This document shows, piece after piece, positions 3,885 through 19,371 of a DNA stretch of 56,393 bases. Made by a program: the position numbers and the translations under genes. The notes under the pieces are model-generated. The model was not told the DNA's origin, made no database searches, and was given only the letters and a program-made list of their open reading frames with translations. Within the stretch, counting starts at the first letter, position 1; each line of letters begins with the position of its first letter. The stretch is from an uncultured Eubacteriales bacterium. Its GTDB lineage: Bacteria > Bacillota > Clostridia > Peptostreptococcales > Anaerovoracaceae. The stretch spans positions 1 to 56,393 of the forward strand of contig ONJG01000070.1 of assembly GCA_900318105.1 (NCBI GenBank), written 5' to 3'.

Positions 3885-6500
3885 ATGAAAAACCTCGGTG
3901 TAAATGAATTAAGAGATATGTTCAGGGATTTCTTTGTAAGCAAGGACCATTATGCGGGTGGTTCAGCTTCTCTGATTCCTCAGAATGATAAAAGCCTGAT
4001 GATAATAAACTCCGGCATGGCTCCGCTAAAACCTTATTTCGCAGGTGTGGAGACTCCTCCGAGCAAGAGAATGACAACATGCCAGAAGTGCATCAGAACC
4101 AACGATATTGATAATGTCGGAAAAACAGCAAGACACGGTACTTTTTTTGAAATGCTCGGCAATTTCAGTTTCGGAGATTATTTCAAAAAAGAGTCGCTGG
4201 AATGGGGCTGGGAATTCTGCACTGAATGGCTCGAGATGCCGGCCGATAAACTCTGGGCCACTATTTATGAAGATGATGACGAGGCTTATGAAATCTGGAA
4301 GAATGACATAGGCATGCCGGAAGAAAAAATCGTAAGACTCGGAAAAGATGACAACTTCTGGGAGATCGGTCTCGGACCATGCGGACCTTGTTCGGAAATC
4401 TATTACGACAGAGGACCGGAGTGGGGCTGCGGAAAACCCGACTGCAAACCCGGGTGTGACTGTGACAGATATCTTGAATTCTGGAATCATGTATTCACTC
4501 AGTTTGACAAACAGGAAGACGGCTCATATCCGAGGCTTGCTCATCCTAATATTGACACCGGAATGGGTCTTGAGAGGCTGGCCTGCATACTGCAGGGCGT
4601 GGACTCAATCTTTGACGTTGATACAGTTAAATACATAAGAGATGCCATCACGGATATGGCGGGTGTTAAGTACCAGGACGGCAACTTAAAAGTTGATGTA
4701 AGCGTCAGAATCATAACCGATCACATGAGATCGATGGTATTTATGATAGCCGACGGTATTCTTCCAAGCAATGAAGGAAGAGGTTACATACTCAAGAGAA
4801 TCATCAGACGTGCCGCAAGGCATGCAAAACTCCTCGGAATAACAGAGGAAAGCCCACTTTCTGTACTTGCCGAAAGCGTGATAGAAACATCGGGAAAAGC
4901 CTATCCTGAACTTGTCGAAAAGCATGATTACATCATCAAGATGATTAGAAATGAAGAAATGCACTTCGCCAAGACTCTTGATAACGGTATACAGATTCTC
5001 GATGGCTACATGGAAGACATGAAAGCAAACGGAAGCACGGAGCTCTCCGGAGACCTTACTTTCAAGCTTTATGATACTTATGGTTTTCCGCTTGAAGTCA
5101 CTCAGGAGATTCTCGAAGAAAACGGCATGACCGCTGATGTTGACGGTTTCAACGAAAACATGAAGCACCAGAAAGACATGGCCAGGGCTCGCCAGAAAGA
5201 TACGGAGGACGAAGCATGGAGAGATGCCGGAGAGTACAGCGATCTTCCGCATACAATCTTCCTTGGATATACCGAAGAAAGCGGCGAAGCAGAAGTGCTT
5301 TATGTCGGAAACTTCGATGAAAACCGCAGGTTTGTTATTCTGGATCAGACTCCGTTTTATGCCACAAGCGGCGGTCAGGTTTATGATACCGGTACAATCA
5401 CAAAGGGAAGCGATTCTCTGAGAGTTGTTGATGTCATAAAGGAAAATGACATTTATCTCCACGTTATTAATGCTGATGATGCAGGGCTTGCAGACCAGCT
5501 CAGCAAGGGAGATAAAGTATCTCTTGCTATAGATTCAATCAGAAGACATAGAATTGCCAGGTCGCACTCCGCAACGCATCTGCTTCAGCAGGCTTTGAGA
5601 GATGTGCTCGGTGACCACGTGATGCAGGCAGGATCTTATGTTGATGACAACTACCTCAGATTCGACTTCAACCACTTCCAGGCAGTGACTCCGGAGGAAA
5701 TCGAAAAACTTGAGGATGTTGTAAATGAAAAAGTGGACGAATATCTGCCGGTTAAAATGGAAGAGATGCCGATTGATGATGCCAAGAAACTCGGCGCGAT
5801 GGCTCTCTTCGGTGAGAAATACGGAGACATTGTGCGTGTTGTAAGCATGGGCGACTACAGCGTTGAGTTCTGCGGAGGCACACATGTTGATAACACCGGT
5901 AAGGTCGGCGGCTTTAAAATTGTAAGCGAGTCAGGTATAGCTGCAGGTGTAAGACGTATTGAAGCCATCACAGGTTCCAATGTAATCAAATATCTGGCAG
6001 GTAAAGAAGCAACGCTCAGCACTGTTGCTAACACGCTGAAATCAACGGAAACAGACCTAACACGCAAAGCAGCTCAGGTAATGAGCGACATTAAGTCTCT
6101 TGAAAATACAATTAAAACTTTTAAATCTGACGAGATAAGCGGCGCAGTTGATGATATAATTAATTCAGCTAAAGAAGTCGGAGGAGTCAGATTAATCACC
6201 AGGCTGTTTGAGGACAGCGATGTGGATCAGCTCAGAAGCATCAGTGATGCCGTTAAGGAAAACACTGATGATGTGATAATGGTATTCGCGGCAGTGAAAG
6301 ACGGAAAGGTGACATTTATAGTTTCCGTCAGCGAGGATCTTATCGGCAAAGGCTATCATGCCGGCAAACTGATCAAAGACATAGCTGCAGCTGCGGGCGG
6401 CGGTGGTGGTGGTAAAGCCAATATGGCTCAGGCCGGCGCCAAAGACCCGTCAAAAGTTGATGATGCATTCAGAAAAGCTGAAGAACTTCTGACAACTTAG
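3885..6500 (+). CDS. alaS: Alanine--tRNA ligase
   Basis: Alanyl-tRNA synthetase (871 aa, usual length about 875). The class II catalytic domain is at the N-terminus, with MTTCQKCIRTNDIDNVGKT and RHGTFFEMLGNFSFGDYFK. The editing domain carries the zinc motif HSATH (561-565) and CGGTH (663-667). The C-terminal C-Ala domain ends in a Gly-rich stretch before KANMAQAGAKDPSK. ATG 3885 has AGGAGA at 3870-3875. Only 36 bases precede the gene, so there is no room for a T-box leader. ireB and ruvX follow, the conserved Bacillota alaS-yrzL-yrrK order. Confidence 0.98.
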   Translation: MKNLGVNELRDMFRDFFVSKDHYAGGSASLIPQNDKSLMIINSGMAPLKPYFAGVETPPSKRMTTCQKCIRTNDIDNVGKTARHGTFFEMLGNFSFGDYFKKESLEWGWEFCTEWLEMPADKLWATIYEDDDEAYEIWKNDIGMPEEKIVRLGKDDNFWEIGLGPCGPCSEIYYDRGPEWGCGKPDCKPGCDCDRYLEFWNHVFTQFDKQEDGSYPRLAHPNIDTGMGLERLACILQGVDSIFDVDTVKYIRDAITDMAGVKYQDGNLKVDVSVRIITDHMRSMVFMIADGILPSNEGRGYILKRIIRRAARHAKLLGITEESPLSVLAESVIETSGKAYPELVEKHDYIIKMIRNEEMHFAKTLDNGIQILDGYMEDMKANGSTELSGDLTFKLYDTYGFPLEVTQEILEENGMTADVDGFNENMKHQKDMARARQKDTEDEAWRDAGEYSDLPHTIFLGYTEESGEAEVLYVGNFDENRRFVILDQTPFYATSGGQVYDTGTITKGSDSLRVVDVIKENDIYLHVINADDAGLADQLSKGDKVSLAIDSIRRHRIARSHSATHLLQQALRDVLGDHVMQAGSYVDDNYLRFDFNHFQAVTPEEIEKLEDVVNEKVDEYLPVKMEEMPIDDAKKLGAMALFGEKYGDIVRVVSMGDYSVEFCGGTHVDNTGKVGGFKIVSESGIAAGVRRIEAITGSNVIKYLAGKEATLSTVANTLKSTETDLTRKAAQVMSDIKSLENTIKTFKSDEISGAVDDIINSAKEVGGVRLITRLFEDSDVDQLRSISDAVKENTDDVIMVFAAVKDGKVTFIVSVSEDLIGKGYHAGKLIKDIAAAAGGGGGGKANMAQAGAKDPSKVDDAFRKAEELLTT

Positions 6501-6520
6501 TCAAAGGGAGGATACATATA

Positions 6521-6772
6521 ATGAGCAAGAACACTATTATGTTCGAAGGATTCAAGGACAGTCAAATGGACAAAAAAGAAACTCTGATGGAAATTTACGC
6601 AGCGCTCACTGAACGCGGATATAATGCAATCGATCAGATTGTAGGCTATCTGACATCCGGTGATCCTTCGTATATCACAAGCCACAATAACGCAAGAAAT
6701 CTCATCCTTAAAATTGACAGGGACGAGCTTCTTGAGGAGATTCTTGTGAATTATCTGAATATCAGCAAGTAA
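6521..6772 (+). CDS. ireB: IreB family regulatory phosphoprotein (UPF0297)
   Basis: An 83-aa IreB/YrzL-type protein. The family core is plain: LMEIYAALTERGYNAIDQIVGYLTSGDPSYITSHNNAR. In Enterococcus IreB is phosphorylated on N-terminal Thr by the kinase IreK and influences cephalosporin resistance; Thr5 here could be a site, but that is inference. GGGAG lies 12 bases before the ATG. It sits between alaS and ruvX as in Bacillus and Clostridium, and ruvX begins three bases after its stop. Confidence 0.92.
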   Translation: MSKNTIMFEGFKDSQMDKKETLMEIYAALTERGYNAIDQIVGYLTSGDPSYITSHNNARNLILKIDRDELLEEILVNYLNISK

Positions 6773-6775
6773 TTA

Positions 6776-7219
6776 ATGAGAATACTCGGGCTTGATGTAG
6801 GAACTAAAACAGTGGGGGTCGCAGTCAGCGACCCTCTTGGCGTTATCGCAACAGGTGTAACGACAATAGACAGGGTAGGCATCAGAAAGGACACAGGCAA
6901 GGTCATAGACTATATAAGAGAATATGACTGTGATACAGTCGTCATAGGCCTGCCTCTTTCTCTCGACGGTGATGACTCCGTGCAGACCGAAAAGGTAAGG
7001 GAGTTTCGCAGAATGCTCGAAAACAAACTGAGAAGCTCGGGCAAATTATCCTCTGTAAGAGTCGAATGGCAGGACGAGAGATATTCCACTGTTGAGGCCG
7101 AAGAAGTCCTCATAGAGGCAAATATGAGCCGTGAGGACAGGAAGAAAATCATAGACAGACAGGCCGCAATAGTTATATTGCAGCGTTATCTAGACAGAAT
7201 CTCTGCAGACAAATTATAA
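6776..7219 (+). CDS. ruvX: RuvX/YqgF family pre-16S rRNA nuclease (putative Holliday junction resolvase)
   Basis: RNase H-like nuclease of the YqgF family (147 aa). The start MRILGLDVGTKTVGVAVSD carries the first catalytic Asp. GLPLSLDG follows, and WQDERYSTVEAEEVL holds the DER motif. E. coli YqgF matures the 16S rRNA 5' end; a Holliday junction role has also been proposed. ATG 6776 lies three bases after the ireB stop without its own strong Shine-Dalgarno, suggesting coupled translation. The LysR gene begins 11 bases after its stop. Confidence 0.95.
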   Translation: MRILGLDVGTKTVGVAVSDPLGVIATGVTTIDRVGIRKDTGKVIDYIREYDCDTVVIGLPLSLDGDDSVQTEKVREFRRMLENKLRSSGKLSSVRVEWQDERYSTVEAEEVLIEANMSREDRKKIIDRQAAIVILQRYLDRISADKL

Positions 7220-7230
7220 GGAGACTTTTG

Positions 7231-8115
7231 ATGAACGACCTGATGATTGATTATTTCATGGCGGTTGCGACAAATCTGAGTTTCACCAAGACATCAAAAG
7301 AGCTATTTGTCTCACAACCCGCAATTTCAAAACAAATAACTCAGCTTGAGAAAGAACTCGGAGCCAGACTCTTCAGTCGTAACAATAAAGAAACACAGCT
7401 GACTGAAGTAGGAAGGCTCTACTTTGATTTTTTCAGCAGATATAAGTCTGATTTCATGAGCACGAAAATTGAAGCAGACAGAATACTCGGAAAGAAAAAA
7501 GGAATCATACGCGTCGGTTTTCTGGAAGGCTGGGATCTATTTAACATAATCCCGCCTATGATGAAACAGTTTAAAGAATGCTACCCGGATTCGGATATTA
7601 TCATAAACTGCTGCGGAGTAAAGGAACTATCAAGCGGTCTTCTGACACATGCTCTTGATATAGCCGTCACATTTAAAAACTCAATTAACATGTACCGCGA
7701 GATAGAGTGCAGGGATGTAACGGATATAGGGAAAGTACTTGTGTTTTCCGCAAATCATCCGCTTGCGAAAAAGGAGCCGTCAGAACTTTCGTTAAAGGAC
7801 TTCAGTGATGATGCGTTCTTTGCTCCCTGGTCCATAGTGGACAGCATGATAATCGATGCTATTTCATCATATACAAGACCTTATGGTTTTGTACCCGATG
7901 TCACATTTGTAAAGAATCATGAATCGATGGTCACATGCGTACGCAATAATATGGGTGTGGCGATAATGGATGAATGGGTGTGGGCCAAAGACGCGGCCGA
8001 TCTCAGATGGATACCGTTTGATGCACGTGACAGGGTTACCGTCGCAAGATTTAAAGCCAATGATTCCGAGTACGTGCTTAAAATGGAGGATATACTTGAA
8101 AATATTCTGAGCTGA
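7231..8115 (+). CDS. LysR family transcriptional regulator
   Basis: LysR-type regulator (294 aa) with an N-terminal winged helix-turn-helix (about residues 1-60). The signature is LSFTKTSKELFVSQPAISKQ, then LEKELGARLF. A type 2 periplasmic-binding-fold effector domain follows. I chose ATG 7231, seven bases after AAGGAG (7218-7223), over a TTG one codon upstream. It is read together with ruvX but stands just before the redox cluster on the same strand and ends at a hairpin terminator. It is a good candidate regulator of the 8.3-15.6 kb genes, although LysR genes are more often divergent from their targets. The effector is unknown. Confidence 0.93.
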   Translation: MNDLMIDYFMAVATNLSFTKTSKELFVSQPAISKQITQLEKELGARLFSRNNKETQLTEVGRLYFDFFSRYKSDFMSTKIEADRILGKKKGIIRVGFLEGWDLFNIIPPMMKQFKECYPDSDIIINCCGVKELSSGLLTHALDIAVTFKNSINMYREIECRDVTDIGKVLVFSANHPLAKKEPSELSLKDFSDDAFFAPWSIVDSMIIDAISSYTRPYGFVPDVTFVKNHESMVTCVRNNMGVAIMDEWVWAKDAADLRWIPFDARDRVTVARFKANDSEYVLKMEDILENILS

Positions 8116-8148
8116 TAAAATATACATGCTTAAATCCTTGCAACTACT

Positions 8149-8177
8149 AATCCATAACCATATGGTTATGGATTTTT
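8149..8177 (+). terminator. Palindromic terminator after the LysR gene
   Basis: A perfect 26-base palindrome with arms of 13 (AATCCATAACCAT at 8149-8161 and its complement at 8162-8174), running into five T at 8173-8177. It separates the LysR gene from the cluster promoter. Its perfect symmetry would also allow it to serve as an operator. Confidence 0.65.
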
Positions 8178-8211
8178 ATTCTGAATAGAAATTATACTTC
8201 TGACTGCTTCG

Positions 8212-8241
8212 TTGATAAAATTTAAACAAGATATATATTAT
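8212..8241 (+). promoter_or_regulatory. Candidate sigma-A promoter of the redox cluster
   Basis: TTGATA at 8212-8217 stands 18 bases from TATTAT (8236-8241) or 16 bases from TATATT (8234-8239). It lies between the terminator at 8149-8177 and the start at 8270, so it could drive the membrane protein and the genes behind it. Confidence 0.45.
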
Positions 8242-8269
8242 GATTGCTTTTGTAAGCAGGGAGGAAGAT

Positions 8270-8755
8270 ATGAAAAAGAGTAATAAACTCACTGCGGTAT
8301 ATGCACTCATCATGGATTTACCGCTCAGCATCGTTATTACAATCATCGCACTGGCTCTTGGCGGCAATTTGTCACTCAGCTCTTTTATACCGAGTTGCAT
8401 TCTGGCATATGTCGTCACTTTTTTTGTCAACTTCATACATGCCGAGAAGTGGGGATTTGCATTTGCATCCAAGCATGCAAAACCCGGAACATTCAAATTC
8501 GGTCTTTTGCTTAATCTCGTGGTAGCAGCCGTATTTGTTGTCATTCTCGATCTTATAATGACTTACTTCGGAGTCATTATCCAGGGCGGCGGCACAATGA
8601 GTGACTACTGGAAAGCCGTAATAGGCGGATTTATTCCATGCTATGTTCCGACACTTATCATCGCAATGTTCTGGAACAACGTAGCAGACAAATGGTCCAG
8701 GCAGATCTGCAACGAGCCCGCACCTGAGATGCCGGGCGCAGCTGATCAGCAGTAA
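8270..8755 (+). CDS. Small four-helix membrane protein, function unknown
   Basis: A 161-aa hydrophobic protein with about four membrane segments in two pairs. The first pair covers about residues 7-60 (LTAVYALIMDLPLSIVITI, then CILAYVVTFFVNFI). The second covers about 76-150 (LLLNLVVAAVFVVILDLIM, then GFIPCYVPTLIIAMFWNNVA). The repeated two-helix layout recalls DUF2798-type proteins, but I cannot confirm the family. ATG 8270 has GGGAGG just upstream; a longer frame from 8240 lacks a ribosome binding site. It is the first gene after the cluster promoter, which suggests a link to the downstream redox genes, perhaps in transport or membrane anchoring. That is inference. Confidence 0.75.
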   Translation: MKKSNKLTAVYALIMDLPLSIVITIIALALGGNLSLSSFIPSCILAYVVTFFVNFIHAEKWGFAFASKHAKPGTFKFGLLLNLVVAAVFVVILDLIMTYFGVIIQGGGTMSDYWKAVIGGFIPCYVPTLIIAMFWNNVADKWSRQICNEPAPEMPGAADQQ

Positions 8756-8849
8756 CACAGTTCATATATTTGTCACATGAATATATTAAAATACTAATCG
8801 GCACAGAATTTCTTTATAAGATATTTGCATTATGCAGGAGGGATAAGTA

Positions 8850-9827
8850 ATGAAGATTCTGGGAATTTCACTGGGAACAAAAAACGGAAATAATGACACA
8901 ATGTGTAGAGTGGCTCTTGAAGAGTGCCAGAAACTCGGAGCCGAAATCGAATTCATTCATCTCTTTGACTGGGACATCCAGACATGTACAGGCTGCGTTG
9001 CCTGCTCAAGAGGACTGGTAATGGGCAAAGGAATGATCTGCACAAGAAAAGATGACTATAAGGCTCTCTATGAAAAGATGGTAGAGGCTGACGGCGTATT
9101 TATAGTAGACCCGATCTATGAATCAGGCGGGTCCGGACTCTTCCACATTGTTACGGACAGAATGGGACCGGGTCACGACACGGGAATGCTCCTCGGACTC
9201 AATGAAAAACTTATTGAACAGGGAAAAGAGCCTCTCAATCCCAGATATTTCAGACAGAAAGCAATTTCGTTCCTTGCGATCGGAGGTTCCGACTGGGCTG
9301 TAAGAACAGAGACAGACCATGCCATGCTCGCCATGAGCCCGGGCTGGAAGGTCATCGACAATGACTTCTTCTCATGGTGCAAGGATGTAATCATGCAGGA
9401 TGACAAAATTGAGAGAACAAAAGAGATGGCAAGGAATCTCGTCGAAGCCGCCCAGTACATAATCGATCACGACCTGACAATTATGGAGTCTGACAATGTC
9501 GATCTCTGGAAGGGTAAGAAAGGCGCATGCCCTCACTGCAACGGCAATGCATTTTACATCTATCCGGGCACGACGACAGCCGTATGCGAACTCTGCGGAC
9601 TGGAAGGCAAACTCGTTGAAAAAGACGGAGCTATGGTGTTCGAATTCGATCCGTCAACAGAATGGCATGCACATGACATTCTGTCCGGAAAAGCCGCTCA
9701 CGGCAAGGATATCTTTGAGAACGAGGGAAGGCTGATGAACCTCTTCAAAGATCCGGAGTTCATAGCGCGCAAGGAGCACTACACAAGCGTGATCGAGCCG
9801 ACTCCTTCACCTTCAAAAGGTAAATAG
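8850..9827 (+). CDS. Isf-like iron-sulfur flavoprotein / NADPH-dependent FMN reductase family with zinc ribbon
   Basis: A 325-aa flavodoxin-fold protein. The N-terminus MKILGISLGTKNGNND is the FMN phosphate loop of the NADPH-dependent FMN reductase family. The cysteines C46, C49, C52 and C64 (in CTGCVAC and the following loop) resemble the compact cluster motif of iron-sulfur flavoproteins (Isf). A C-terminal zinc-ribbon-like region has C227/C230 and C246/C249. Isf proteins pass electrons between ferredoxin and FMN in anaerobes. The start has GGAGGG nine bases upstream. The next gene follows after 90 bases containing a large inverted repeat. The tail after residue 220 is unusual for the family. 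The substrate is unknown. Confidence 0.8.
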   Translation: MKILGISLGTKNGNNDTMCRVALEECQKLGAEIEFIHLFDWDIQTCTGCVACSRGLVMGKGMICTRKDDYKALYEKMVEADGVFIVDPIYESGGSGLFHIVTDRMGPGHDTGMLLGLNEKLIEQGKEPLNPRYFRQKAISFLAIGGSDWAVRTETDHAMLAMSPGWKVIDNDFFSWCKDVIMQDDKIERTKEMARNLVEAAQYIIDHDLTIMESDNVDLWKGKKGACPHCNGNAFYIYPGTTTAVCELCGLEGKLVEKDGAMVFEFDPSTEWHAHDILSGKAAHGKDIFENEGRLMNLFKDPEFIARKEHYTSVIEPTPSPSKGK

Positions 9828-9851
9828 AACTTAATATGCTACAATAGTTAT

Positions 9852-9889
9852 ATTCTGCGGACATAGGATTAATTCCTTGTCCGTAGAAT
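9852..9889. repeat. Imperfect 19-base inverted repeat in the cluster
   Basis: Arms 9852-9870 and 9871-9889 pair at 15 Watson-Crick and 2 G-T positions of 19. No T-run follows, so it is not a standard terminator. It could be an operator, an RNA-stabilising hairpin, or a processing site between the flavoprotein and EthD-like genes. Confidence 0.5.
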
Positions 9890-9917
9890 GGCATTTGATA
9901 AAAGAAAGGATAGCAAG

Positions 9918-10793
9918 ATGAACAGACCTGAATTTTATCCTGTAAGATCTCTTATATTCGTAGATCTCGCTCATGAAGATTACAGAATCAAGCTTGAGAA
10001 CTGGCTGTACAGATATCATGTACCCGACAGCATATCCCAGTTTGGTCCTTATGTCAGCAAATATGCATTTTATCCTGCACTTCCGACTCCGCCGGGCGGC
10101 GAGAGATTCGGTACTGTCAGGATGCAGATGACAGAGCATTACTGGCTCGCAAATCCCAACGATGTGGCATTTGCCGGTGATCATCACAAGATTCTTACCG
10201 AGTACTTTCCGACGGATGTTCTCGTCTGGCAGAATAATATTCCCGATCATGGACATTCACACAGCATAGATAAGTCAGAGGAAGTAAATATCGAGGGAGA
10301 TGACGCAAGATCAACCAAAGGAGATGAGTCTGCAGGTACTGTTCCTTTCATCTTCGCATTCATACCGGTATGGTGGGAGGAAGACTTCAAAGGAGAAGGA
10401 CGCACTGTAGAGGACGGACCTAACTACAGATGGCAGTTTGTTGTTAAATATCCCGAAGGCGTGAGTGCGGAAGAAGGGGATAAATGGCTCAGGGAAGAGT
10501 TCATACCCGCATGGACGTCACATGACGGCTGCACACGCTGCGTGTCCAGCAAAATCAAAAAGGAAGTTAACAACTGCGAATTCGACCGCGTTGTTGAAAT
10601 GTGGTTTGAATGCCAGACTGCATGGGTAGATGCATGCAAGGATGCTGCAAAGAAATGCGCTAAACCGGCATGGGCAGAAACAGAAGACTTCCCATACTTC
10701 AAGAAATCATACGGTATAAGCGGAATATTCCTCTCAGACTACGCAAGGTCGGATAATCTGCAGCAGTACCACGGATATATTACAATGAGATAA
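9918..10793 (+). CDS. EthD-like dimeric alpha+beta barrel protein, function unknown
   Basis: A 291-aa soluble protein that I read as two ferredoxin-like alpha+beta units. The first begins RSLIFVDLAHEDYRIKLENWL with the ...YRYHVPD segment; the second covers about residues 130-240 (TVPFIFAFIPVWWEEDF, then WQFVVKYPEGVSAEEG). This layout recalls EthD and related dimeric barrels that act on small aromatic or quinone-like molecules, but the match is by pattern only. His/Asp-rich stretches (DHGHSHSID, GDHH) may bind metal. ATG 9918 follows AAAGGA; a frame from 9888 lacks a site. The propeller gene starts 15 bases later, so the two are almost surely co-translated. Confidence 0.6.
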   Translation: MNRPEFYPVRSLIFVDLAHEDYRIKLENWLYRYHVPDSISQFGPYVSKYAFYPALPTPPGGERFGTVRMQMTEHYWLANPNDVAFAGDHHKILTEYFPTDVLVWQNNIPDHGHSHSIDKSEEVNIEGDDARSTKGDESAGTVPFIFAFIPVWWEEDFKGEGRTVEDGPNYRWQFVVKYPEGVSAEEGDKWLREEFIPAWTSHDGCTRCVSSKIKKEVNNCEFDRVVEMWFECQTAWVDACKDAAKKCAKPAWAETEDFPYFKKSYGISGIFLSDYARSDNLQQYHGYITMR

Positions 10794-10808
10794 CATACGG
10801 AGAGATTA

Positions 10809-12200
10809 ATGGGCAAAGGAAAATATTTTTATTCAAAAGGAGAAGGAAACGACGGATACATAAAGAATCTGGAAGTTCTTTCATTTTGTGAAATGGACGG
10901 AACTTGCGGAATGTTCCAGATGGCACTGTATCGCACCGAATCCGGCCGATATTTGCTCTATGGCGCATGTTTTGCGGCAGGTCCGGCCGGAGTAGGCATC
11001 ATGATAAGCGATGTCACAGATCCGAAAAATCCGGTATTTATCAAAAAGTGGCTTCCGTTTGACATTGAGGAGTATCCGACAACATCCATTCCGAAATTAC
11101 AGATTGCAGATGACAAACTTGTTTTTGCTCTTACATCAGGCAGCGGACCTTCGGTTCTTGTAGGTGACAGAGCCAAGATGAAATGCATGCAGGGCATCAT
11201 GGTATGCGATCTTAAGAAAGATCCTGAGAATCCGGAAATTCTCGGATACTGGGACTGCGGAGTTCCTTATTCCATGGGAGTTCACAGATTCATGTATAAC
11301 GGCGGAGACTATGTGCATCTCTCGGCCGAGGCTGATGAGCACGAGGGCATGATATACAGAATAGTCAATATAGCAGATCCCGCCAACATGTATGAAGTAG
11401 GTCGCTGGTGGGCACCTCATCAGTATATATACGGAGTTCCTGGCCGCGAAGTGGATCATTCCGCGCCGCATGTACCCGATTTCATGGATAAAGGCTGGAT
11501 GCACGGACCTCCGTTTGTTATGGGAGATAAAGCATATCTCGGTTACGGCGGAGACGGTCTTTATGTGCTTGATGTATCGGATTTCACAAGACCAAAAGCA
11601 CTCGGACAGCTTAAATTCATGCCTGCGTTTTCCAGCAGACTTGCAGGCGCAAGGACGCATACCGCGCTTCCTCTTAAGGGCAGGGATCTTTGCGTTGTGA
11701 CCAACGAGGGAGAGAGATTCGGCTTTATAAAGGACGGAGTTGTCAAAGAAGCACAGGCTATGAATAATATTCATATGGTCGATGTTTCAGACCCGGCAAA
11801 CCCCGTTTTGATAGCTGAGTTCCCATATCCTGAGGTTCCGGAAGATTTCCCGGCTCCGAACTTCAATGTAGTCGGACTGGCTGAAGGCTCAAAGGGCGGA
11901 CCATTCGGACCGCACAATCTGCATGAACCGATGGATGGAAAGCCATGGCTTGAGCAGAGAACGGATGTGGTCTATGACTGCTACTTCCAGGCCGGACTCA
12001 GAATATATGATGTTTCGGATCCGTTCTACATCAAGGAAAAGGCATATTTCATACCGCCGAATCCTACCAAGAAATTCTTCCCGTTCCCGGGACCGATGAT
12101 GGCCATGACAGAAGATGTTGTTGTGGATGATCGCGGAAATATTATAATAGATGCTAACAGCGACGGATTTTATATCCTGAGAAAAACTTACGAGGACTGA
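10809..12200 (+). CDS. LVIVD-repeat beta-propeller protein, function unknown
   Basis: A 463-aa protein with six LVIVD-type repeats, each ending in a D(V/I)xDPxxP-like turn: about residues 68-75 (DVTDPKNP), 133-142, 165-174, 224-233 (LDVSDFTRPK), 304-313 (VDVSDPANPV) and 360-369 (YDVSDPFYIK). This is a beta-propeller. There is no signal peptide, so it is probably cytoplasmic, whereas many LVIVD proteins are exported. The segment GPFGPHNLHEPM and several His/Trp-rich loops (WWAPHQYIYGVPGREVDHS) could form a metal or ligand site. GGAGAG precedes ATG 10809. It is paired with the EthD-like gene. The reaction, if any, is unknown. Confidence 0.75.
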   Translation: MGKGKYFYSKGEGNDGYIKNLEVLSFCEMDGTCGMFQMALYRTESGRYLLYGACFAAGPAGVGIMISDVTDPKNPVFIKKWLPFDIEEYPTTSIPKLQIADDKLVFALTSGSGPSVLVGDRAKMKCMQGIMVCDLKKDPENPEILGYWDCGVPYSMGVHRFMYNGGDYVHLSAEADEHEGMIYRIVNIADPANMYEVGRWWAPHQYIYGVPGREVDHSAPHVPDFMDKGWMHGPPFVMGDKAYLGYGGDGLYVLDVSDFTRPKALGQLKFMPAFSSRLAGARTHTALPLKGRDLCVVTNEGERFGFIKDGVVKEAQAMNNIHMVDVSDPANPVLIAEFPYPEVPEDFPAPNFNVVGLAEGSKGGPFGPHNLHEPMDGKPWLEQRTDVVYDCYFQAGLRIYDVSDPFYIKEKAYFIPPNPTKKFFPFPGPMMAMTEDVVVDDRGNIIIDANSDGFYILRKTYED

Positions 12201-12220
12201 TCGGCAAACGGAGATTAAAC

Positions 12221-12922
12221 ATGGGACTGTTTTATGAGTCGGACAAGAGCTTTGAAGAACTGATGAACGAAAAGAAGAATTTTGTTTTTATCGGTGAAGC
12301 AGGCTCGGGAAAAAGTGAGATTGCACTTAATATTGCGCATAAACTCGCAAATATGAGCGACAGGAAAGTCGATCTCTTCGATCTCGATCAGACCAAGCCG
12401 CTGTACAGATCGCGGGACATGCAGGCTGACTTCGAGGGGAAAGGCGTCAGCATTCATTATCAGGATCAGTATCTGGATGCGCCGGTCATGGTCGGCGGAG
12501 TCAGAGTGTCGCTTGTAAGCGACAATTATACTCTGCTCGATATAGGGGGCGGTCATCAGGCAGCGAAGTTTGCCGGAGCATATTCCGATCTTCTGAGCAA
12601 AGATGATTCCGTTCCTGTATACATAGTAAATCCATACAGACCGTGGACCAAAAGCGTGGATGCCATAGATGCCACAATGAAACACATACTCGGTTCCATG
12701 AGACTCGATCATATTTATTTACTGGGAAATCCCAATCTCGGATATTCCACCAATGTTAACGAATTCATGGAAGGTCTGAAGAAGATAGATGAGCTGTTTG
12801 ACGGATATACCGATGTCAACAGTCTCTGCGTAAACAGGGGTATTTATGATGATGTCAGTAAACTTACAGACAAAAATCTGATCCCCATAGATCTTTTCCT
12901 GACCTATTCATGGGTTGACTGA
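12221..12922 (+). CDS. P-loop ATPase, function unknown
   Basis: A 233-aa nucleotide-binding protein. The Walker A is GEAGSGKS (25-32). An Asp-containing strand VDLFDLDQTKPLYRSRD follows at about 49-65, and a Walker B-like strand YTLLDIGGGH at about 105-114. The fold suggests the SIMIBI/MinD-like class, whose members often act as metallochaperones or maturation factors. ATG 12221 has CGGAGA nine bases before it. It lies 20 bases after the propeller gene and 39 bases before vorD, so it may help assemble or activate one of the cluster enzymes. That role is inference. Confidence 0.7.
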   Translation: MGLFYESDKSFEELMNEKKNFVFIGEAGSGKSEIALNIAHKLANMSDRKVDLFDLDQTKPLYRSRDMQADFEGKGVSIHYQDQYLDAPVMVGGVRVSLVSDNYTLLDIGGGHQAAKFAGAYSDLLSKDDSVPVYIVNPYRPWTKSVDAIDATMKHILGSMRLDHIYLLGNPNLGYSTNVNEFMEGLKKIDELFDGYTDVNSLCVNRGIYDDVSKLTDKNLIPIDLFLTYSWVD

Positions 12923-12961
12923 ATAACAGATATTGTACGTTTTAACTAAGGAGGGAAATTA

Positions 12962-13165
12962 ATGGCAAGAATCGAAATTACAGCTGAGGCTTGCAAATCA
13001 TGCTCCTACTGCGTTATCTCATGCCCCAAAAAGTGCATTGAGATAGGCGAAAAGGTAAACTCCAAAGGTTACCTCTATGCTACTTCCGCAAGACCTGAGG
13101 ACTGCATCGGATGTGCGATGTGCGCTCAGATCTGCCCGGAATCGGCCATAGAGGTCTGGAGATAG
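12962..13165 (+). CDS. vorD: 2-oxoacid:ferredoxin oxidoreductase, 4Fe-4S (delta) subunit
   Basis: A 67-aa ferredoxin-like subunit with two [4Fe-4S] motifs: CKSCSYCVISCPKKC (from residue 11) and CIGCAMCAQICPE (from about 48). It passes electrons from the TPP-bound intermediate to external ferredoxin. It starts after a strong AAGGAGG. The order delta-alpha-beta-gamma with vorB 13 bases downstream is the usual VorDBAC/KorDABC arrangement. The exact 2-oxoacid (branched chain, 2-oxoglutarate or other) cannot be told from sequence, so the symbol is tentative. Confidence 0.88.
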   Translation: MARIEITAEACKSCSYCVISCPKKCIEIGEKVNSKGYLYATSARPEDCIGCAMCAQICPESAIEVWR

Positions 13166-13178
13166 AAAGGGGGATGAA

Positions 13179-14258
13179 ATGGCAGAACGTGTATTTATGA
13201 AAGGCACTGAGGCTATAGCCGAGGCTGCAGTGAGGGCAGGATGCCGCTTTTTTGCAGGATATCCGATTACACCTCAAAACGAAATTCCAGAATATATGGC
13301 CAGAAGACTTCCTGAAGTCGGAGGTTCTTTTGTACAGGGAGAAAGCGAAGTTGCTTCCGTTAATATGCTTTACGGCGCCGCATCGACCGGTATCAGAGCT
13401 ATGAGCTCATCCTCTTCATGCGGTATTTCATTATATAGTGAAGGCGTCTCATACTGCGCTTCAGCACGTATACCTATGGTATATGTAAATGTGCAAAGAG
13501 GCGGCCCGGGAATCGGAGCAATTCAGCCTGCCCAGCAGGATTATCTGCAGGCCACAAAGGCATCCGGTAACGGCGGATTCAGGATGATAGTGCTTGCTCC
13601 TGACTCAGTTCAGGAATGCGTGGATATGGTATATGAGGCCTTTGATCTGGCTGAGAGAGATCAGAACCCCGTTCTTGTCCTCACAGACGGCGTAATGGGC
13701 ACGATGATGGAGCCTGTTGTGCTTCCTGAAATGAAGACAGATAAAGAACTAGAGGAATGCAGAGCGAAATTCCTGCCAAGAGCCATAATCGGACATCCTC
13801 TCGGACAGCAGGCCACATGCAGACCGGGCTCTGTAGGAGACGGACAAGAACAGGAAAACATCAAGGCTTCCGCCATGTATGAAACATGGGATAAAGACAT
13901 CAGAGTCGAAGAATACATGATGGATGATGCCGAGATAGTATTTGCCGCTTATGGTATCTCCGCAAGAATTTCAAGAGCAGTAATCAGGGAACTGAGAAAA
14001 GAAGGCATCAAAGCAGGAATGATCAGACCGATAACAATATCACCGTTCCCGTATGATGCATTCAGGAATCTCGACTTTAACAGAATAAAGGGTATTATAG
14101 ACGTTGAGATGTCCATACCTGCCCAGATGAGATGGGATATAGACTATGCCATCCAGGGAAAATGCCCGGTAAAAGAGATTCTGAGATCCGGCGGACAGCT
14201 TCTCACAAATGACCAGGTTATGGCAGGTGCGAAGGAATTCATAAAGGAGGTGCTGTAA
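13179..14258 (+). CDS. vorB: 2-oxoacid:ferredoxin oxidoreductase alpha subunit (VorB-like)
   Basis: Alpha subunit (359 aa), giving the pyrimidine-binding part of the TPP site and the substrate pocket. Recognisable segments are MKGTEAIAEAAVRAGCRFF, GYPITPQNEIPEYMA, QGESEVASVNMLYGA and MSSSSSCGISLYSEG, which closely match proteins called 3-methyl-2-oxobutanoate dehydrogenase subunit VorB. With vorD, vorA and vorC it would oxidatively decarboxylate a 2-oxoacid to acyl-CoA and CO2, reducing ferredoxin. The stop overlaps the start of vorA (TAATG). Branched-chain specificity is only the database habit for this family. Confidence 0.92.
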   Translation: MAERVFMKGTEAIAEAAVRAGCRFFAGYPITPQNEIPEYMARRLPEVGGSFVQGESEVASVNMLYGAASTGIRAMSSSSSCGISLYSEGVSYCASARIPMVYVNVQRGGPGIGAIQPAQQDYLQATKASGNGGFRMIVLAPDSVQECVDMVYEAFDLAERDQNPVLVLTDGVMGTMMEPVVLPEMKTDKELEECRAKFLPRAIIGHPLGQQATCRPGSVGDGQEQENIKASAMYETWDKDIRVEEYMMDDAEIVFAAYGISARISRAVIRELRKEGIKAGMIRPITISPFPYDAFRNLDFNRIKGIIDVEMSIPAQMRWDIDYAIQGKCPVKEILRSGGQLLTNDQVMAGAKEFIKEVL

Positions 14259-15019
14259 TGGCTGAAGAGAAAAAAGTCTACACCAGGACAAAAGGCATAC
14301 TTCCGGATACAGTATCCGGATTCTGCCCGGGCTGCATGCACAGCACAGTACATAAAATCATAGGCGAAGCAGCAGAAGAACTCGGACAGCTCGATAATCT
14401 CGTAAGAGTTGAGGGCGTAGGATGCTGCGGACTCGGTCAATTCTATGTATCATGCGATGAGACAATCGCAGCTCACGGAAGAGCAGGCGCCGTAGCAACA
14501 GGAATTAAGAGATCTTCCCCGAATTCACTTGTATATACATATCAGGGAGACGGAGATCTCGCTGCAATCGGTCTTGCAGAGACCATGTCTGCAGCAAACA
14601 GGGGAGAGAACTTCACCGTAATCTTCATTAATAACGGAATTTACGGCATGACGGGAGGTCAGATGGCACCTACAACTCTTGTAGGCATGAAATCCACTAC
14701 ATCTCCGGCAGGCCGTAATCCGGAGGAGCACGGTTATCCGATGCACATGAGCGAGATTCTTAATCAGCTCACAGCTCCTTACTATATCGAAAGAGTAAGC
14801 TGCGATACGCCTCAGAATGTAATCAAAGCCCGTAATGCAATTAAAAAGGCATTTCAGTATCAGCTGGATGGAAAAGGCTATTCAATAGTTGAGATAGTTA
14901 CAACCTGTCCGACGAACTGGGGCATGGATCCGATTAAATCGCTGGATTTCCTGAGAGAGAATATGTTCAAGGAATATCCTCTCGGTGTATTCAGAGACGG
15001 CGGAGAAAAGAAGCAATAG
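14258..15019 (+). CDS. vorA: 2-oxoacid:ferredoxin oxidoreductase beta subunit (TPP-binding)
   Basis: Beta subunit (253 aa) holding the TPP diphosphate site. The TPP motif is GDGDLAAIG with the partner NNGIYGMTGGQ; conserved cysteines are in FCPGCMHS and GVGCCGLGQFY. It shares one base with the vorB stop (TAATG junction), with AAGGAGG just inside vorB, so alpha and beta are translated in step. vorC begins nine bases after the stop. The catalytic chemistry is thiamine-dependent decarboxylation with ferredoxin as acceptor. Confidence 0.93.
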   Translation: MAEEKKVYTRTKGILPDTVSGFCPGCMHSTVHKIIGEAAEELGQLDNLVRVEGVGCCGLGQFYVSCDETIAAHGRAGAVATGIKRSSPNSLVYTYQGDGDLAAIGLAETMSAANRGENFTVIFINNGIYGMTGGQMAPTTLVGMKSTTSPAGRNPEEHGYPMHMSEILNQLTAPYYIERVSCDTPQNVIKARNAIKKAFQYQLDGKGYSIVEIVTTCPTNWGMDPIKSLDFLRENMFKEYPLGVFRDGGEKKQ

Positions 15020-15028
15020 GAGGGCGCT

Positions 15029-15577
15029 ATGGAAAGAAATCTTATGATCGCCGGATTCGGCGGACAGGGAGTTATGACTATGGGCAAACTCCTGGCAGAA
15101 GCCACTTCTCAGGCTACTGACCTCAATGTGACATTCTTCCCGTCATACGGAGCTGCCATGAGAGGCGGTACGGCAAACTGCTATGTTGTTATATCCGATG
15201 AAGAAATAGGAGCACCTGTAAGCTACAATCTGGAGGACCTTGTTGTAATGAACGGTCCGTCGCTTCACAAGTTCCTGCCGAACCTCAAACCGGGCGGAAA
15301 TCTCTTTGTGAACAGCACGATAGTAACAGACCCGATTGACAGGGACGATATCAATATAATCAAGGCTCCTGTAACACAGATGGCCATTGATATTAAAAAT
15401 GAAAGGGCACTAAATGTTATAATGCTGGGCGTTTATGTGGGCGCAACCGATGCGGTTCCGGAAGATGTAATAATCAAGGGAATAGAGCATAAATTCGCTG
15501 CAAAGGAAAAGCTTATCGCACCGAATGTAGAAGCCTTCAAGATGGGGCTTGAGATCGGCAGACAGCAGAAAGCATAA
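15029..15577 (+). CDS. vorC: 2-oxoacid:ferredoxin oxidoreductase gamma subunit
   Basis: Gamma subunit (182 aa). The start IAGFGGQGVMTMGKLLAEA and the stretch SYGAAMRGGTANCYVVISDE are hallmarks of the 2-oxoacid:acceptor oxidoreductase gamma family, which supplies the CoA-binding domain. AGGAGGG lies five bases before ATG. It is the last gene of the redox cluster and is followed by a strong terminator at 15605-15640. Confidence 0.93.
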   Translation: MERNLMIAGFGGQGVMTMGKLLAEATSQATDLNVTFFPSYGAAMRGGTANCYVVISDEEIGAPVSYNLEDLVVMNGPSLHKFLPNLKPGGNLFVNSTIVTDPIDRDDINIIKAPVTQMAIDIKNERALNVIMLGVYVGATDAVPEDVIIKGIEHKFAAKEKLIAPNVEAFKMGLEIGRQQKA

Positions 15578-15604
15578 TAATTGTCCTTATTTAAAAAGGC
15601 GGAT

Positions 15605-15640
15605 AACAGAGCAGTGGGGCATTCTCACTGCTCTGTTTTT
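15605..15640 (+). terminator. Strong terminator closing the vorDBAC cluster
   Basis: A perfect 12-base stem AACAGAGCAGTG (15605-15616) / CACTGCTCTGTT (15626-15637) with a nine-base loop, ending in five T. It marks the 3' end of the cluster transcript. Confidence 0.92.
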
Positions 15641-15650
15641 GCTGTATAAT
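15622..15650 (+). promoter_or_regulatory. Candidate promoter overlapping the vor terminator
   Basis: TATAAT at 15645-15650, with TTCTCA (4 of 6 match to TTGACA) 17 bases upstream at 15622-15627 inside the terminator arm. Transcription would begin only about eight bases before the TTG at 15665, consistent with the absence of a Shine-Dalgarno for the next gene. Confidence 0.4.
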
Positions 15651-15664
15651 GAATATAAACAGTA

Positions 15665-16225
15665 TTGGTTAACGGTAATTTATTATTGAAAAATAAGCGT
15701 TTATTTTACAACTTAACAAGAATATTTCTCATCCTGACAGAATGCACTGCAGTAGTTTTGTGCTGTGCCGTAATTACTGTATTTTCACAGGAAAATGTAC
15801 TGGACAGGCTGGTTAATAATACCGGTGATTTATTCATAACGAACATAGATTCAGGAACAATGGAGATTGCTGCCGTAAATGCAGTAGAGGAGTATGAGGA
15901 GTATCTTGAATCCATCAGATGGAAAGGTCCGGTTCTTTCAAGGAGCAAAGGTACGGTAATAGGTCCGTCAGGTAAGGAAACTTATTATAACCTCAATATG
16001 GACGGCGTAGTCAGTATAATGCGTCGCATGGGTAATAATGATGAGTACTGGGTCAGAGAAGATGGTTGCAAAATGCTCGGAGACTATATCATGGTAGCAG
16101 CCAATCTGAACCTGCGTCCGAGAGGATCAATTGTTGAAACTTCGCTTGGAAAAGCCATAGTGTGTGATACAGGCACGTTTGCCAGGAGGAATCCTACTCA
16201 GATAGACGTTGCTGTTACATGGTGA
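15665..16225 (+). CDS. Membrane-anchored double-psi-barrel (3D/RlpA-like) protein
   Basis: Up to 186 aa: an N-terminal membrane anchor (about residues 14-40), a linker, then a C-terminal domain. The segment LNLRPRGSIVETSLGKAIVCDTG (about 148-170) followed by QIDVAVTW looks like the 3D/RlpA-type double-psi beta-barrel: a lGtxv...DtG...iDv pattern with Asp168. Such domains occur in cell-wall lytic enzymes. The start is uncertain: no ATG or Shine-Dalgarno is visible near the 5' end, only TTG at 15665 and again at 15686. It lies just downstream of a terminator with its own TATAAT and is followed by another membrane gene. Confidence 0.65.
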   Translation: MVNGNLLLKNKRLFYNLTRIFLILTECTAVVLCCAVITVFSQENVLDRLVNNTGDLFITNIDSGTMEIAAVNAVEEYEEYLESIRWKGPVLSRSKGTVIGPSGKETYYNLNMDGVVSIMRRMGNNDEYWVREDGCKMLGDYIMVAANLNLRPRGSIVETSLGKAIVCDTGTFARRNPTQIDVAVTW

Positions 16226-16238
16226 TGCATTAATTATT

Positions 16239-17372
16239 ATGAAAAAGATTTATTCCAAAACTTATAAGATACCGCGAAAACCCTTGATGTTAAGCGAAAA
16301 ACTTCTGTCAAGACTGGGTAATTATCTGATTCTGACAGTCGTTATATTGCTGGCAGGCCTGATTAATTCCGACGGATCGACGAGGGGTTTTCCGTTCCCG
16401 TGGCTTGATTATTCCGGGCATATACTGCCGCAGTATTTTATTCCGTCTGTCATAGCCATAGCTGCAGTGGTTGCAGGAGGGGATATACTGGCTAAAATGT
16501 ATATCCTGATCAAGGAACCCAGGCTCATCGTCAACACAAGAGAACCTTCTGATATGAGGGCTTACGGAGATACCATCGAAATGGCAAATTCGGAGCCTGA
16601 GATAATCATTACGGAGTCTGAAACCTCTGCTGACGGCATTGATATATTACCGGATGACGATATGATAGAAAAAGCAGAGCGCAAGATGCTTAATCGCATT
16701 CCGGTTAAAAAAGGAAAATCAAAAGATACAAAGAAGGATAATTCATTTCCTGTAGTCGGAGCTCTGGTAATCGGAAGTATTATATTGTCTATGGCTCTAT
16801 CATTCTTTGGAAGCTTATGGGAAGATGATAATAGTCTGGATTTCCTTGAAGACGATGAAATAGTACTGGATGCAGATTCAGGCTATGACAGCATAGAAGA
16901 AGCAGCAACACATAGTTGTGAACAGATGTTTGAATCGCTTCAATATGAGGATTATGACTTTTTCGAAGATTTTTCAAGCTATGAAGAAGCCGAAGAAATA
17001 CTGGAACTTACAGACTGGAGCGACCTGGATTTCGAAGAGATCTCTTCATATATTAGTGAAGAAGATGTAATCGCATTATATAAATATGCTGTAATTGACA
17101 GCTATGGTAATAGCTATCTGCTTGCGGCATATATGGATATAGGGGAGATCATTGAAGGATACGAGTGCACGATGTCCGGTGTAGCCGTGATAAGCGAGAC
17201 AGATCTTGATGAAGGCCGCAATAAAGTTGCCGATGAAAATAATCTGACGCAGGAAGAATATGAAAAATATTTTATGAATAAGATAACCAATGTCGGAAAC
17301 ATATCCATTAATGAAGAGCACATACTTTTCTGGGATTATGATGGTCAGAATCTTACGGGACTTGAGGTTTAA
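16239..17372 (+). CDS. Acidic three-segment membrane protein, function unknown
   Basis: A 377-aa protein I do not recognise. It has a basic N-terminus, membrane segments at about 28-43, 66-90 and 171-193, and a very acidic C-terminal half (193-290, many Asp/Glu, e.g. LEDDEIVLDADSGYDSIEEA). The final 100 residues could be a small folded extracellular or cytoplasmic domain. I prefer ATG 16239 over an in-frame ATG at 16209 inside the previous gene; GGTGA at 16221-16225 is a weak ribosome site. It follows the double-psi-barrel gene by 13 bases, so the two may act together at the cell envelope. Confidence 0.7.
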   Translation: MKKIYSKTYKIPRKPLMLSEKLLSRLGNYLILTVVILLAGLINSDGSTRGFPFPWLDYSGHILPQYFIPSVIAIAAVVAGGDILAKMYILIKEPRLIVNTREPSDMRAYGDTIEMANSEPEIIITESETSADGIDILPDDDMIEKAERKMLNRIPVKKGKSKDTKKDNSFPVVGALVIGSIILSMALSFFGSLWEDDNSLDFLEDDEIVLDADSGYDSIEEAATHSCEQMFESLQYEDYDFFEDFSSYEEAEEILELTDWSDLDFEEISSYISEEDVIALYKYAVIDSYGNSYLLAAYMDIGEIIEGYECTMSGVAVISETDLDEGRNKVADENNLTQEEYEKYFMNKITNVGNISINEEHILFWDYDGQNLTGLEV

Positions 17373-17373
17373 A

Positions 17374-17476
17374 GCTTATGAGAGGGGCTGCAAGGCAGCC
17401 CATGCTCTGTCTTGGCAACTCTTCCTAAAATCATAATTTTCGGAAGAGTTAAGCCCTCGAAATTTGAGTTCTAAGC
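17374..17476. other. Structured convergent intergenic region, possible ncRNA or terminators
   Basis: Several nested pairings fit one rod-like structure: GCTTA (17374-17378) with TAAGC (17472-17476); GAGGGGCT (17382-17389) with AGCCCTC (17452-17458, one bulge); and a 14-pair hairpin at 17417-17450 with one mismatch. The first arm can alternatively form a tight hairpin GGGCTGC/GCAGCCC (17385-17401). No T-run follows on either strand, so these are not plain terminators. Strand and function are open. A separate 16-base inverted repeat (GATATCG-GT-CGATATC) lies at 17486-17501. The rest of 17477-17550 shows nothing else. Confidence 0.35.
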
Positions 17477-17550
17477 GATTTTATTGATATCGGTCGATAT
17501 CTTATACCTCCTGTTTTTAAGGCTTTTCAGCATTATTTTATATTCTTTAA

Positions 17551-17609
17551 TAATAAGATCCGAAGCCGGCCGGGATGCACTGTTAGCCTATTGACTTCGG
17601 ATCTTATTA
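17551..17609. repeat. 15-base perfect inverted repeat with 29-base loop
   Basis: TAATAAGATCCGAAG (17551-17565) is the exact reverse complement of 17595-17609. It lies between convergent genes and may stop or stabilise transcripts from both sides, though neither arm is followed by a T-run. Confidence 0.5.
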
Positions 17610-17667
17610 ATAAAACACACTATCTAGACATATATCTATGGAAGGAATGAAAGATATATGATGCTAG

Positions 17668-17994: not shown

Positions 17995-18013
17995 ATCTGT
18001 CACCTTAAAAAAT

Positions 18014-18087: not shown

Positions 18088-18101
18088 GAAAATTCACAAA
18101 C

Positions 18102-18124: not shown

Positions 18125-18131
18125 CTGTAAT

Positions 18132-18152: not shown

Positions 18153-18169
18153 CAATTGCAGCTGCGTTC

Positions 18170-19361: not shown

Positions 19362-19371
19362 TAATTTGTGC

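Follow-up and report, generated by a model that had tools for sequence, protein, structure and literature searches.

A candidate flavonol-degradation operon in an uncultured Anaerovoracaceae bacterium joins flavone reductase, chalcone isomerase and an LVIVD propeller protein to a 2-oxoacid oxidoreductase

Contig ONJG01000070.1, from an uncultured bacterium of the Anaerovoracaceae, carries a cluster of ten plus-strand genes that opens with a LysR-type regulator and closes with an intrinsic terminator. Within the 56,393 nucleotides analyzed (the window), this cluster encodes homologues of flavone reductase (FLR) and bacterial chalcone isomerase (CHI), a β-propeller protein of the LVIVD family and the four subunits of a 2-oxoacid oxidoreductase, VorDBAC. 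We propose that it is an operon for the anaerobic degradation of flavonoids, most likely flavonols, and give this reading, whose catalytic steps we infer, an even chance of being correct. The proposal builds on the identities of the genes, their conserved synteny and co-occurrence in other genomes, and an operator-like palindrome. The source genome is 1.48 Mb in 92 contigs and 76.6% complete. The closest named relatives of its LVIVD gene are found in Mogibacterium-labelled and uncultured Clostridiales metagenome-assembled genomes (MAGs), many of them titled as goat or sheep gut. A sequence-only reading of this DNA had suggested an anaerobic small-molecule pathway ending in oxidation of a 2-oxoacid, which is plausible and partly borne out; its view of the barrel protein and the flavoprotein as uncharacterized is not. 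Published work is cited below by PMC accession, for those portions of each article that were available.

The flavone reductase and chalcone isomerase homologues

The gene at 8850–9827 (+) encodes a flavoprotein of the Pfam family FMN_red, as had been proposed, but one that is a homologue of an enzyme already crystallized and assayed. The phmmer match to the Flavonifractor plautii flavone reductase (PDB 7d38, the code given in PMC7862272) has an E-value of 1.1e-79 and covers residues 1–322, including a C-terminal tail that is absent from WrbA. Six residues named in the structure section of that paper (Glu91, Asp103, Ser147, Trp149, His271 and Ile275) are present at the aligned positions of the window protein. 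The 27 FLR loci compared from outside the genus, some of which come from one species, retain all six without exception, with Ile or Leu at the last position.

The four cysteines singled out by the sequence-only reading are also present (Cys46, Cys49, Cys52 and Cys64, spaced C-X2-C-X2-C-X11-C), and they are kept in the same 27 loci. We take the compact [4Fe-4S] cysteine motif of Isf to have a last spacing shorter than this X11, and there is no Isf chain among the PDB matches of the window FLR. According to the FLR paper, NAD(P)H cannot serve the enzyme directly and the chain that delivers its electrons is still to be explored; the available portions of the paper mention neither cysteine nor iron-sulfur (PMC7862272). 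No electron donor of FLR is named in the literature covered, a body of work that leaves most subscription journals outside. A ferredoxin-fed [4Fe-4S] centre on the four cysteines is a direct and testable idea. A second conserved set of four cysteines lies near the C-terminus, at residues 227–249 (window 9528–9596); it too is kept in 27 of 27 loci and is probably a zinc ribbon.

The gene that follows (9918–10793, +) encodes a bacterial CHI (Pfam Chalcone_N, 1.7e-50). An ATG at 9888 has no ribosome site by eye, whereas the start at 9918 has one and agrees with the homologues. The protein matches both domains of the crystallized and assayed Eubacterium ramulus CHI (PDB 3zph, 1.5e-92; query 5–291, chain 4–282). 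By eye, the alignment shows that it keeps the catalytic His33 and the pocket residues Tyr48, Thr71 and Gln101, whose roles are described in PMC8361940, with the substitutions Asp79 to Pro and Ile29 to Leu relative to the E. ramulus enzyme. All 30 loci compared from outside the genus retain the catalytic His. The protein had been taken for an EthD-like barrel with no assigned reaction; at E ≤ 0.1, Chalcone_N is its only Pfam match and EthD is not matched. We regard the identification of the barrel and flavoprotein genes as CHI and FLR as virtually certain.

Published biochemistry points to auronols as the compounds for which CHI matters. The enzyme converts taxifolin into alphitonin, and auronols arise from flavanonols (PMC9694015). 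In E. ramulus, flavanones are opened by Fcr and CHI is not required (PMC8398226). The authors of a study of Clostridium butyricum found no CHI gene in that organism, which cleaves flavanones and not flavonols, forms no auronol and halts at taxifolin dihydrochalcone (PMC11868195). Because flavanones can be cleaved without CHI and C. butyricum forms no auronols, the special role of CHI appears to be auronol formation.

Association of the LVIVD gene with CHI and FLR

The third gene of the series (10809–12200, +) encodes a propeller of the LVIVD family, as the sequence-only reading had recognized (8.3e-9; 35.1 bits against a cut-off of 20.2). We surveyed 345 evenly drawn genomes of the order, calling CHI by PF18232 and LVIVD by alignment A2 at E ≤ 1e-20. 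CHI was found in 34 genomes and LVIVD in 32; 31 carried both, three CHI only, one LVIVD only and 310 neither (Fisher 1e-39, a value overstated by the inclusion of kin genomes). In the LVIVD-only genome (G026), the contig begins inside the gene. At the level of genera, CHI occurs in 10 of 147 and LVIVD in 7, all of which are among the 10. LVIVD lies outside the CHI locus in four of the 31 genomes that have both (G078, G194, G216 and G361). A 3.9-Mb genome (G438) has no match to CHI or LVIVD.

A scan of named genomes gave 147 LVIVD loci, and we retained the best 80. These include loci from E. ramulus, F. plautii, Eubacterium oxidoreducens, Clostridium puniceum, Parasporobacterium and Candidatus Scybalocola (Catenibacillus); the first three are listed as phloroglucinol degraders in PMC10470551. 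Both FLR and CHI are present in 41 of the 80 loci, CHI only in 6 and FLR only in 2. Among 46 LVIVD-bearing genomes outside the genus, 38 contain CHI over the cut-off. Within the genus, FLR, CHI and LVIVD lie on one strand in 18 of 19 congener loci (L081–L099, several of them short), and the nineteenth (L084) is cut off within CHI by the end of its contig. The F. plautii system is similar in having adjacent FLR and CHI homologues (PMC7862272), and in strain ATCC 29863 we find FLR, CHI and LVIVD in one locus (L173), although the available portions of that paper give no role for the LVIVD protein. From this association we consider it highly probable that the LVIVD protein is part of the flavonoid pathway.

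A second group of LVIVD proteins, ∼42% identical where measured, occurs alone or as a second copy and may have a different substrate. Its members are G078:C21 and G244:C37 and, by similar scores, those of G194, G216, G361 and G346:C1, with more distant relatives in G399:C30 and G420:C45. Several other genes recur in these neighborhoods. A DUF1097 membrane protein (cluster c4, e.g. L149:12348-12845) is present in 51 of the 120 loci L061–L180, which include some genomes twice. It often adjoins CHI or LVIVD, is a possible transporter and has no match in the window. A family of MFS transporters accompanies flavonoid genes at L074:298-1500, L134:11461-12690, L149:13714-14928, L166:3984-5162 and L174:17846-19447, and vor is also present in four of these five loci. 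A gene of the PLP-decarboxylase family (c50, L137:11477-12796; also L145, L146, L148 and L155) lies near LVIVD in E. ramulus and four other loci where FLR and CHI are lacking.

The LVIVD protein as a candidate auronol hydrolase

In E. ramulus and Catenibacillus decagia, quercetin is degraded by way of taxifolin and alphitonin, a route that shares the first two enzyme classes and the predicted product with the window (PMC11170127). C. decagia converts quercetin, taxifolin and alphitonin to 3,4-dihydroxyphenylacetate, and the authors suggest from metabolites that 3,4-dihydroxyphenylpyruvate arises by cleavage of alphitonin; the product in Catenibacillus scindens is 3,4-dihydroxyphenyllactate, not the acetate (PMC11170127). 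The available portions of that article give no gene for alphitonin cleavage, and none is assigned in the wider literature covered here, whereas the window offers a candidate gene together with an oxidoreductase.

We place the LVIVD protein at this step because of the published findings on CHI, auronols, C. butyricum and C. decagia, and because the formulas balance: hydrolysis of alphitonin to phloroglucinol and dihydroxyphenylpyruvate is exact. In the proposed pathway, FLR would reduce the flavonol quercetin to the flavanonol taxifolin, and CHI would contract the ring of taxifolin to give the auronol alphitonin, both reactions known from print. The LVIVD protein, as a candidate metal hydrolase, would then act on alphitonin, which is a masked 1,2-diketone, splitting it to yield phloroglucinol and 3,4-dihydroxyphenylpyruvate. 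On the assignment of LVIVD as the auronol hydrolase we are evenly divided.

The predicted fold of the LVIVD protein is a β-propeller. A structure model (pLDDT 89.6, pTM 0.92) has repeated strands, and its best PDB match by Foldseek is 5hrm, the haloalkylphosphorus hydrolase/phosphotriesterase of Sphingobium TCM1 (1.1e-15, TM 0.63), which the LVIVD profile also matches by sequence (1.4e-7, in scattered repeats). We take this phosphotriesterase to be metal-dependent. It shares the LVIVD-type propeller but has a different chemistry. Gln37, Gln98, His159, His284, His369, Asn370 and Glu435/Asp436 are invariant among the LVIVD proteins, with His232 and His372 nearly so. These residues lie in or shortly before predicted strands and suggest a metal site in the propeller channel, where they presumably cluster.

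A different possibility is that the LVIVD protein only opens or isomerizes the auronol, or binds intermediates, while another protein cuts the C–C bond. Beta-propellers are often binding scaffolds, a small DAPG-hydrolase-like gene follows LVIVD in C. puniceum, and a ∼190-residue protein with no Pfam family (cluster c9) recurs downstream of LVIVD in the genus. The c9 protein is not recurrent outside the genus in the loci examined, however, and is thus no general partner, and the invariant His159, His284 and His369 with the acidic residues suggest a metal site. We consider a non-cleaving role improbable. The DAPG-hydrolase-like protein (L129:11562-12188) belongs to a cluster, c51, that is also found with FLR and CHI in L061, L080 and L100. 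Three of these four loci come from LVIVD-free genomes, so c51 may be an alternative C–C hydrolase. L061 also contains 3HCDH, Cyclase and BKACE genes, families that we match by name to steps of phloroglucinol breakdown, a pathway described in PMC10470551.

The known C–C hydrolase of flavonoid degradation, phloretin hydrolase (PF18089, the DAPG hydrolase family), has no match in the LVIVD protein. It was not detected in any of the 47 genomes that represent the window's genus, the window's own included (completeness 59–99%). Six of 148 relatives have it, all six lacking LVIVD. Outside the genus, 37 of 51 LVIVD-bearing genomes have phloretin hydrolase and 14 do not, and LVIVD shares a locus with CHI (at least 40% identity) in 12 of those 14 as compared with 4 of the 37 (Fisher 9e-7, confounded by phylogeny and short contigs). 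LVIVD therefore joins CHI mainly where the known C–C hydrolase is missing. This would also be expected if the LVIVD protein simply replaced phloretin hydrolase, cleaving the chalcones or dihydrochalcones of the flavanone route rather than an auronol. Oxidored_FMN, the expected enoate reductase family for that route, has two matches in the window's genome, although the family is too broad to decide on Fcr-like reductases. Several findings argue against such a replacement. LVIVD and phloretin hydrolase coexist in E. ramulus and in F. plautii, so LVIVD must do something more in these organisms, and flavanones do not need CHI. FLR, CHI and LVIVD occur together in G034 (80% complete), which has neither phloretin hydrolase nor an Oxidored_FMN gene. 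Both are likewise missing from G078 (99% complete), where CHI and a second-group LVIVD lie in separate places. We judge replacement of phloretin hydrolase to be rather unlikely, and cleavage of the auronol remains our preferred function for the LVIVD protein.

The P-loop–vorDBAC block

Downstream of LVIVD lie a P-loop NTPase gene of CbiA/ParA-like type (12221–12922, +; CbiA 2.7e-5, 24.6 bits, below the cut-off of 25.4) and four plus-strand genes whose Pfam and NCBIfam matches, with thiamine and ferredoxin domains, confirm the 2-oxoacid oxidoreductase of the sequence-only reading. They encode VorD, a 2[4Fe-4S] ferredoxin subunit (12962–13165; Fer4_7 4.5e-10), VorB (13179–14258; POR_N 6.7e-47, NCBIfam VorB 423 bits against a cut-off of 399), the thiamine-diphosphate subunit VorA (14258–15019; TPP_enzyme_C 1e-19) and the gamma subunit VorC (15029–15577; POR 1.8e-38). 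In the proposed pathway, VorDBAC would convert the arylpyruvate to arylacetyl-CoA and CO2 and place two electrons on ferredoxin. This ferredoxin would pay for the FLR step, perhaps via the [4Fe-4S] centre considered above. In other lineages, a phosphotransacylase and a kinase would turn the acyl-CoA into the acid and ATP. Overall, quercetin + 2 H2O = phloroglucinol + 3,4-dihydroxyphenylacetate + CO2, a balance that is redox-neutral with no electrons left over. That vor acts on the arylpyruvate and feeds FLR is plausible, but in our estimate falls somewhat short of an even chance.

The history of the block bears on this question. At E ≤ 4.3e-34, 43 of the genus's 47 genomes (the window's own included) have the P-loop gene, and in the 31 congeners that have both it and LVIVD, the two are on different contigs; one genome, G037, has LVIVD and no P-loop match. 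All 12 regions examined around the P-loop gene have it ahead of vorDBAC; LVIVD-bearing congeners account for eight of the 12, and in each of these eight the block lies apart from LVIVD. In G138, which belongs to the genus of C. difficile, and in two LVIVD-free congeners, the block follows butyrate-kinase-like genes, and the P-loop gene therefore belongs with vor and not with the flavonoid genes. The window's gene order is that of the PTB-BUK-(P-loop)-VorDBAC operons of 2-oxoacid fermentation (G138, G043), but its copy lacks PTB and BUK and stands behind FLR-CHI-LVIVD. Because the window VorA–D proteins are 87–97% identical to those of seven of the eight LVIVD-bearing congeners (71–85% for the eighth, G005), the block appears to have moved within the lineage. 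It sits between LVIVD and a gene at 15665–16225 (+), outside the operon, whose homologues lie downstream of LVIVD in congeners and which has 29 matches among the loci L061–L180. The genes beyond it (17668 to 21803) also match congeners. We considered an assembly chimera at the LVIVD–P-loop junction and hold it unlikely because the genes on either side of the block have counterparts in congeners. The block probably entered the operon by relocation within this lineage and is not a fixed part of it. The window differs from the F. plautii system in that vorDBAC is joined to the operon and in belonging to a genus with no phloretin hydrolase match.

The same observations fit a bystander, that is, a general amino-acid 2-oxoacid operon that was rearranged behind FLR-CHI-LVIVD and merely shares their transcript: the block lies elsewhere in congeners, occurs in LVIVD-free genomes as well and is closely similar to the congener copies. 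We regard this as unlikely, though less so than the other alternatives, because both VorDBAC and Ior-type oxidoreductases adjoin these genes in other lineages. L134 has, on one strand, the order FLR-x-CHI-Ploop-VorDBAC-PTB-BUK-LVIVD-MFS, and L149 has Ploop-VorDBAC-PTB-BUK-LVIVD-FLR-DUF1097-CHI-MFS. In L174, FLR-CHI-LVIVD is followed 5–9 kb further on by PTB-BUK-MFS-Ploop-Vor, and in L074 vor and the P-loop gene run divergently to FLR, CHI and an LVIVD gene of the second group. An Ior-type oxidoreductase occurs with PTB and BUK in L172, L061, L100 and L129 (C. puniceum, where the coordinates place CHI further up the same contig), while L080 has PTB and BUK and no oxidoreductase. L061 and L100 are the loci of the LVIVD-free genomes G097 and G209. 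In a Treponema MAG (L178:9989-16620), LVIVD-PTB-Ior-BUK lie on one strand, with CHI not found in the genome and FLR not found in the locus; the substrate of this LVIVD protein may be a different auronol-like compound or diketone. PTB and BUK adjoin the oxidoreductase in L061, L100, L129, L134, L149, L172, L174 and L178. A PTB-like stretch before LVIVD in L130 was short and broken by eye and was not counted.

To judge these associations, we calculated how many would be expected given the copy numbers, locus lengths and genome sizes. Seven of the 46 loci that represent LVIVD genomes outside the genus contain an oxidoreductase, where 0.97 is expected (P = 4e-5), or six (P = 4e-4) when L155 is set aside, whose oxidoreductase is 7.5 kb away and 25–30% like Vor; related genomes are not independent, so that these P values are overstated. 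A wider test gives 10 of 54 against 1.34 expected (P = 6e-7), with eight genomes added after their loci had been seen (G244, G097, G209, G213, G346, G167, G241 and G078), three of which hold an oxidoreductase. The 46-genome test left out the window's genus and Baileyella (L101–L126, L163 and L177), the further C. difficile loci L143, L144 and L161, L131, L132 and L152, the second locus of one genome. An Ior-like match occurs in just one of these, L119 (29%, 9 kb away on the other strand), and the fraction with an oxidoreductase would fall if they were counted singly.

VorDBAC could also do no more than supply FLR with reduced ferredoxin from amino-acid oxoacids, never meeting the arylpyruvate. 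VorB matches the branched-chain family and FLR needs a donor other than direct NAD(P)H, both as expected if this were so. The Treponema locus, however, ties an oxidoreductase to LVIVD and not to FLR, and we give a supply-only role a small chance.

Findings at odds with the proposed pathway

The flavonol pathway with its coupled oxidoreductase remains our preferred reading, and a number of findings weigh against it. Threonine occupies position 305 of FLR in just 3 of the 27 loci outside the genus, and by eye the window protein differs from the F. plautii enzyme at Met10 and Lys92. The LVIVD propeller is 15% identical to 5hrm, and many other propellers match it too. Three CHI-bearing genomes (G097, G209 and G213) have no LVIVD even though PTB and BUK are present at their FLR–CHI loci, joined in two cases by Ior genes; 8 of the 46 LVIVD-bearing genomes outside the genus, many of them incomplete MAGs, have no CHI over the cut-off; and in 31 of the 80 LVIVD loci neither FLR nor CHI lies within the stretch covered. 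VorB is annotated for branched-chain oxoacids, the P-loop and vor genes are absent from all 19 congener loci over the stretch covered, the window has neither PTB nor BUK, and 39 of the 46 loci have no nearby oxidoreductase. Co-occurrence of the unknown genes with vorDBAC across genomes, which the sequence-only reading had set as its own test, does not hold in general: the flavoprotein, barrel and propeller genes mostly occur without a nearby oxidoreductase. Among the 41 LVIVD loci with FLR and CHI, VorB is present in three and an Ior gene in one more (L172). Twenty-seven of the 41 are from congeners or Baileyella, and the oxidoreductases fall in 4 of the other 14 (L134, L149, L172 and L174), which speaks for not discarding the link.

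Transcription signals and operon layout

The LysR-type regulator that had been noted upstream is at 7228–8115 (+; Pfam HTH_1 7.8e-19, LysR_substrate 1.7e-17) and has the same position in congeners. Between it and the next gene is a perfect 26-base palindrome (8149–8174) with the core ATAACC-N4-GGTTAT at 8154–8169, which had entered the terminator scan as terminator-like. Of 25 distinct intergenic regions between LysR and membrane-protein genes, 23 contain the core with no more than one mismatch, where shuffled sequences give an expectation of 0.02, and all 25 contain it when up to three mismatches are allowed (3.1 expected). Five of these regions are from outside the genus, and the window's own copy, with no mismatch, was left out. 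The regions are homologous DNA, so the count shows conservation, and the palindrome is a good candidate for the LysR operator.

The small membrane protein gene (8270–8755, +) has no Pfam match over the cut-off and recurs upstream of FLR or CHI; it and LysR are also present in most of the 19 congener loci. A role in transport is a guess. From this gene to vorC the intergenic gaps are 94, 90, 15, 20, 39, 13, −1 and 9 bases. The genes share one strand. They had been described as having gaps of 90 bases or less and three junctions that are under 16 bases or overlap; one gap is in fact 94 bases and there are four such junctions. The strong terminator stood up well: a 15-pair stem followed by TTTTTG at 15605–15637 (+) heads the list of terminators for 6000–18000. 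A candidate promoter did not, because such sites as a class are at chance level (24 found, 25.2 in shuffles), and sigma-70-like promoters were not used as evidence.

Implications for flavonol degradation

Quercetin is a common dietary flavonoid whose gut product 3,4-dihydroxyphenylacetate is already known. For the gene that cleaves alphitonin and for the electron donor of FLR, the cluster offers one protein family and one redox couple. We tentatively suggest, with some doubt, that LVIVD is the missing auronol hydrolase, a propeller metal enzyme that would cut an aryl–acyl C–C bond, and that together with the oxidoreductase and a [4Fe-4S] FLR it would close a redox-neutral, ATP-yielding loop. 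If this is true, oxidation of the arylpyruvate, with one flavonol carbon lost as CO2, would pay for reduction of the flavonol. LVIVD together with CHI also offers a marker for flavonol degradation in genomes.

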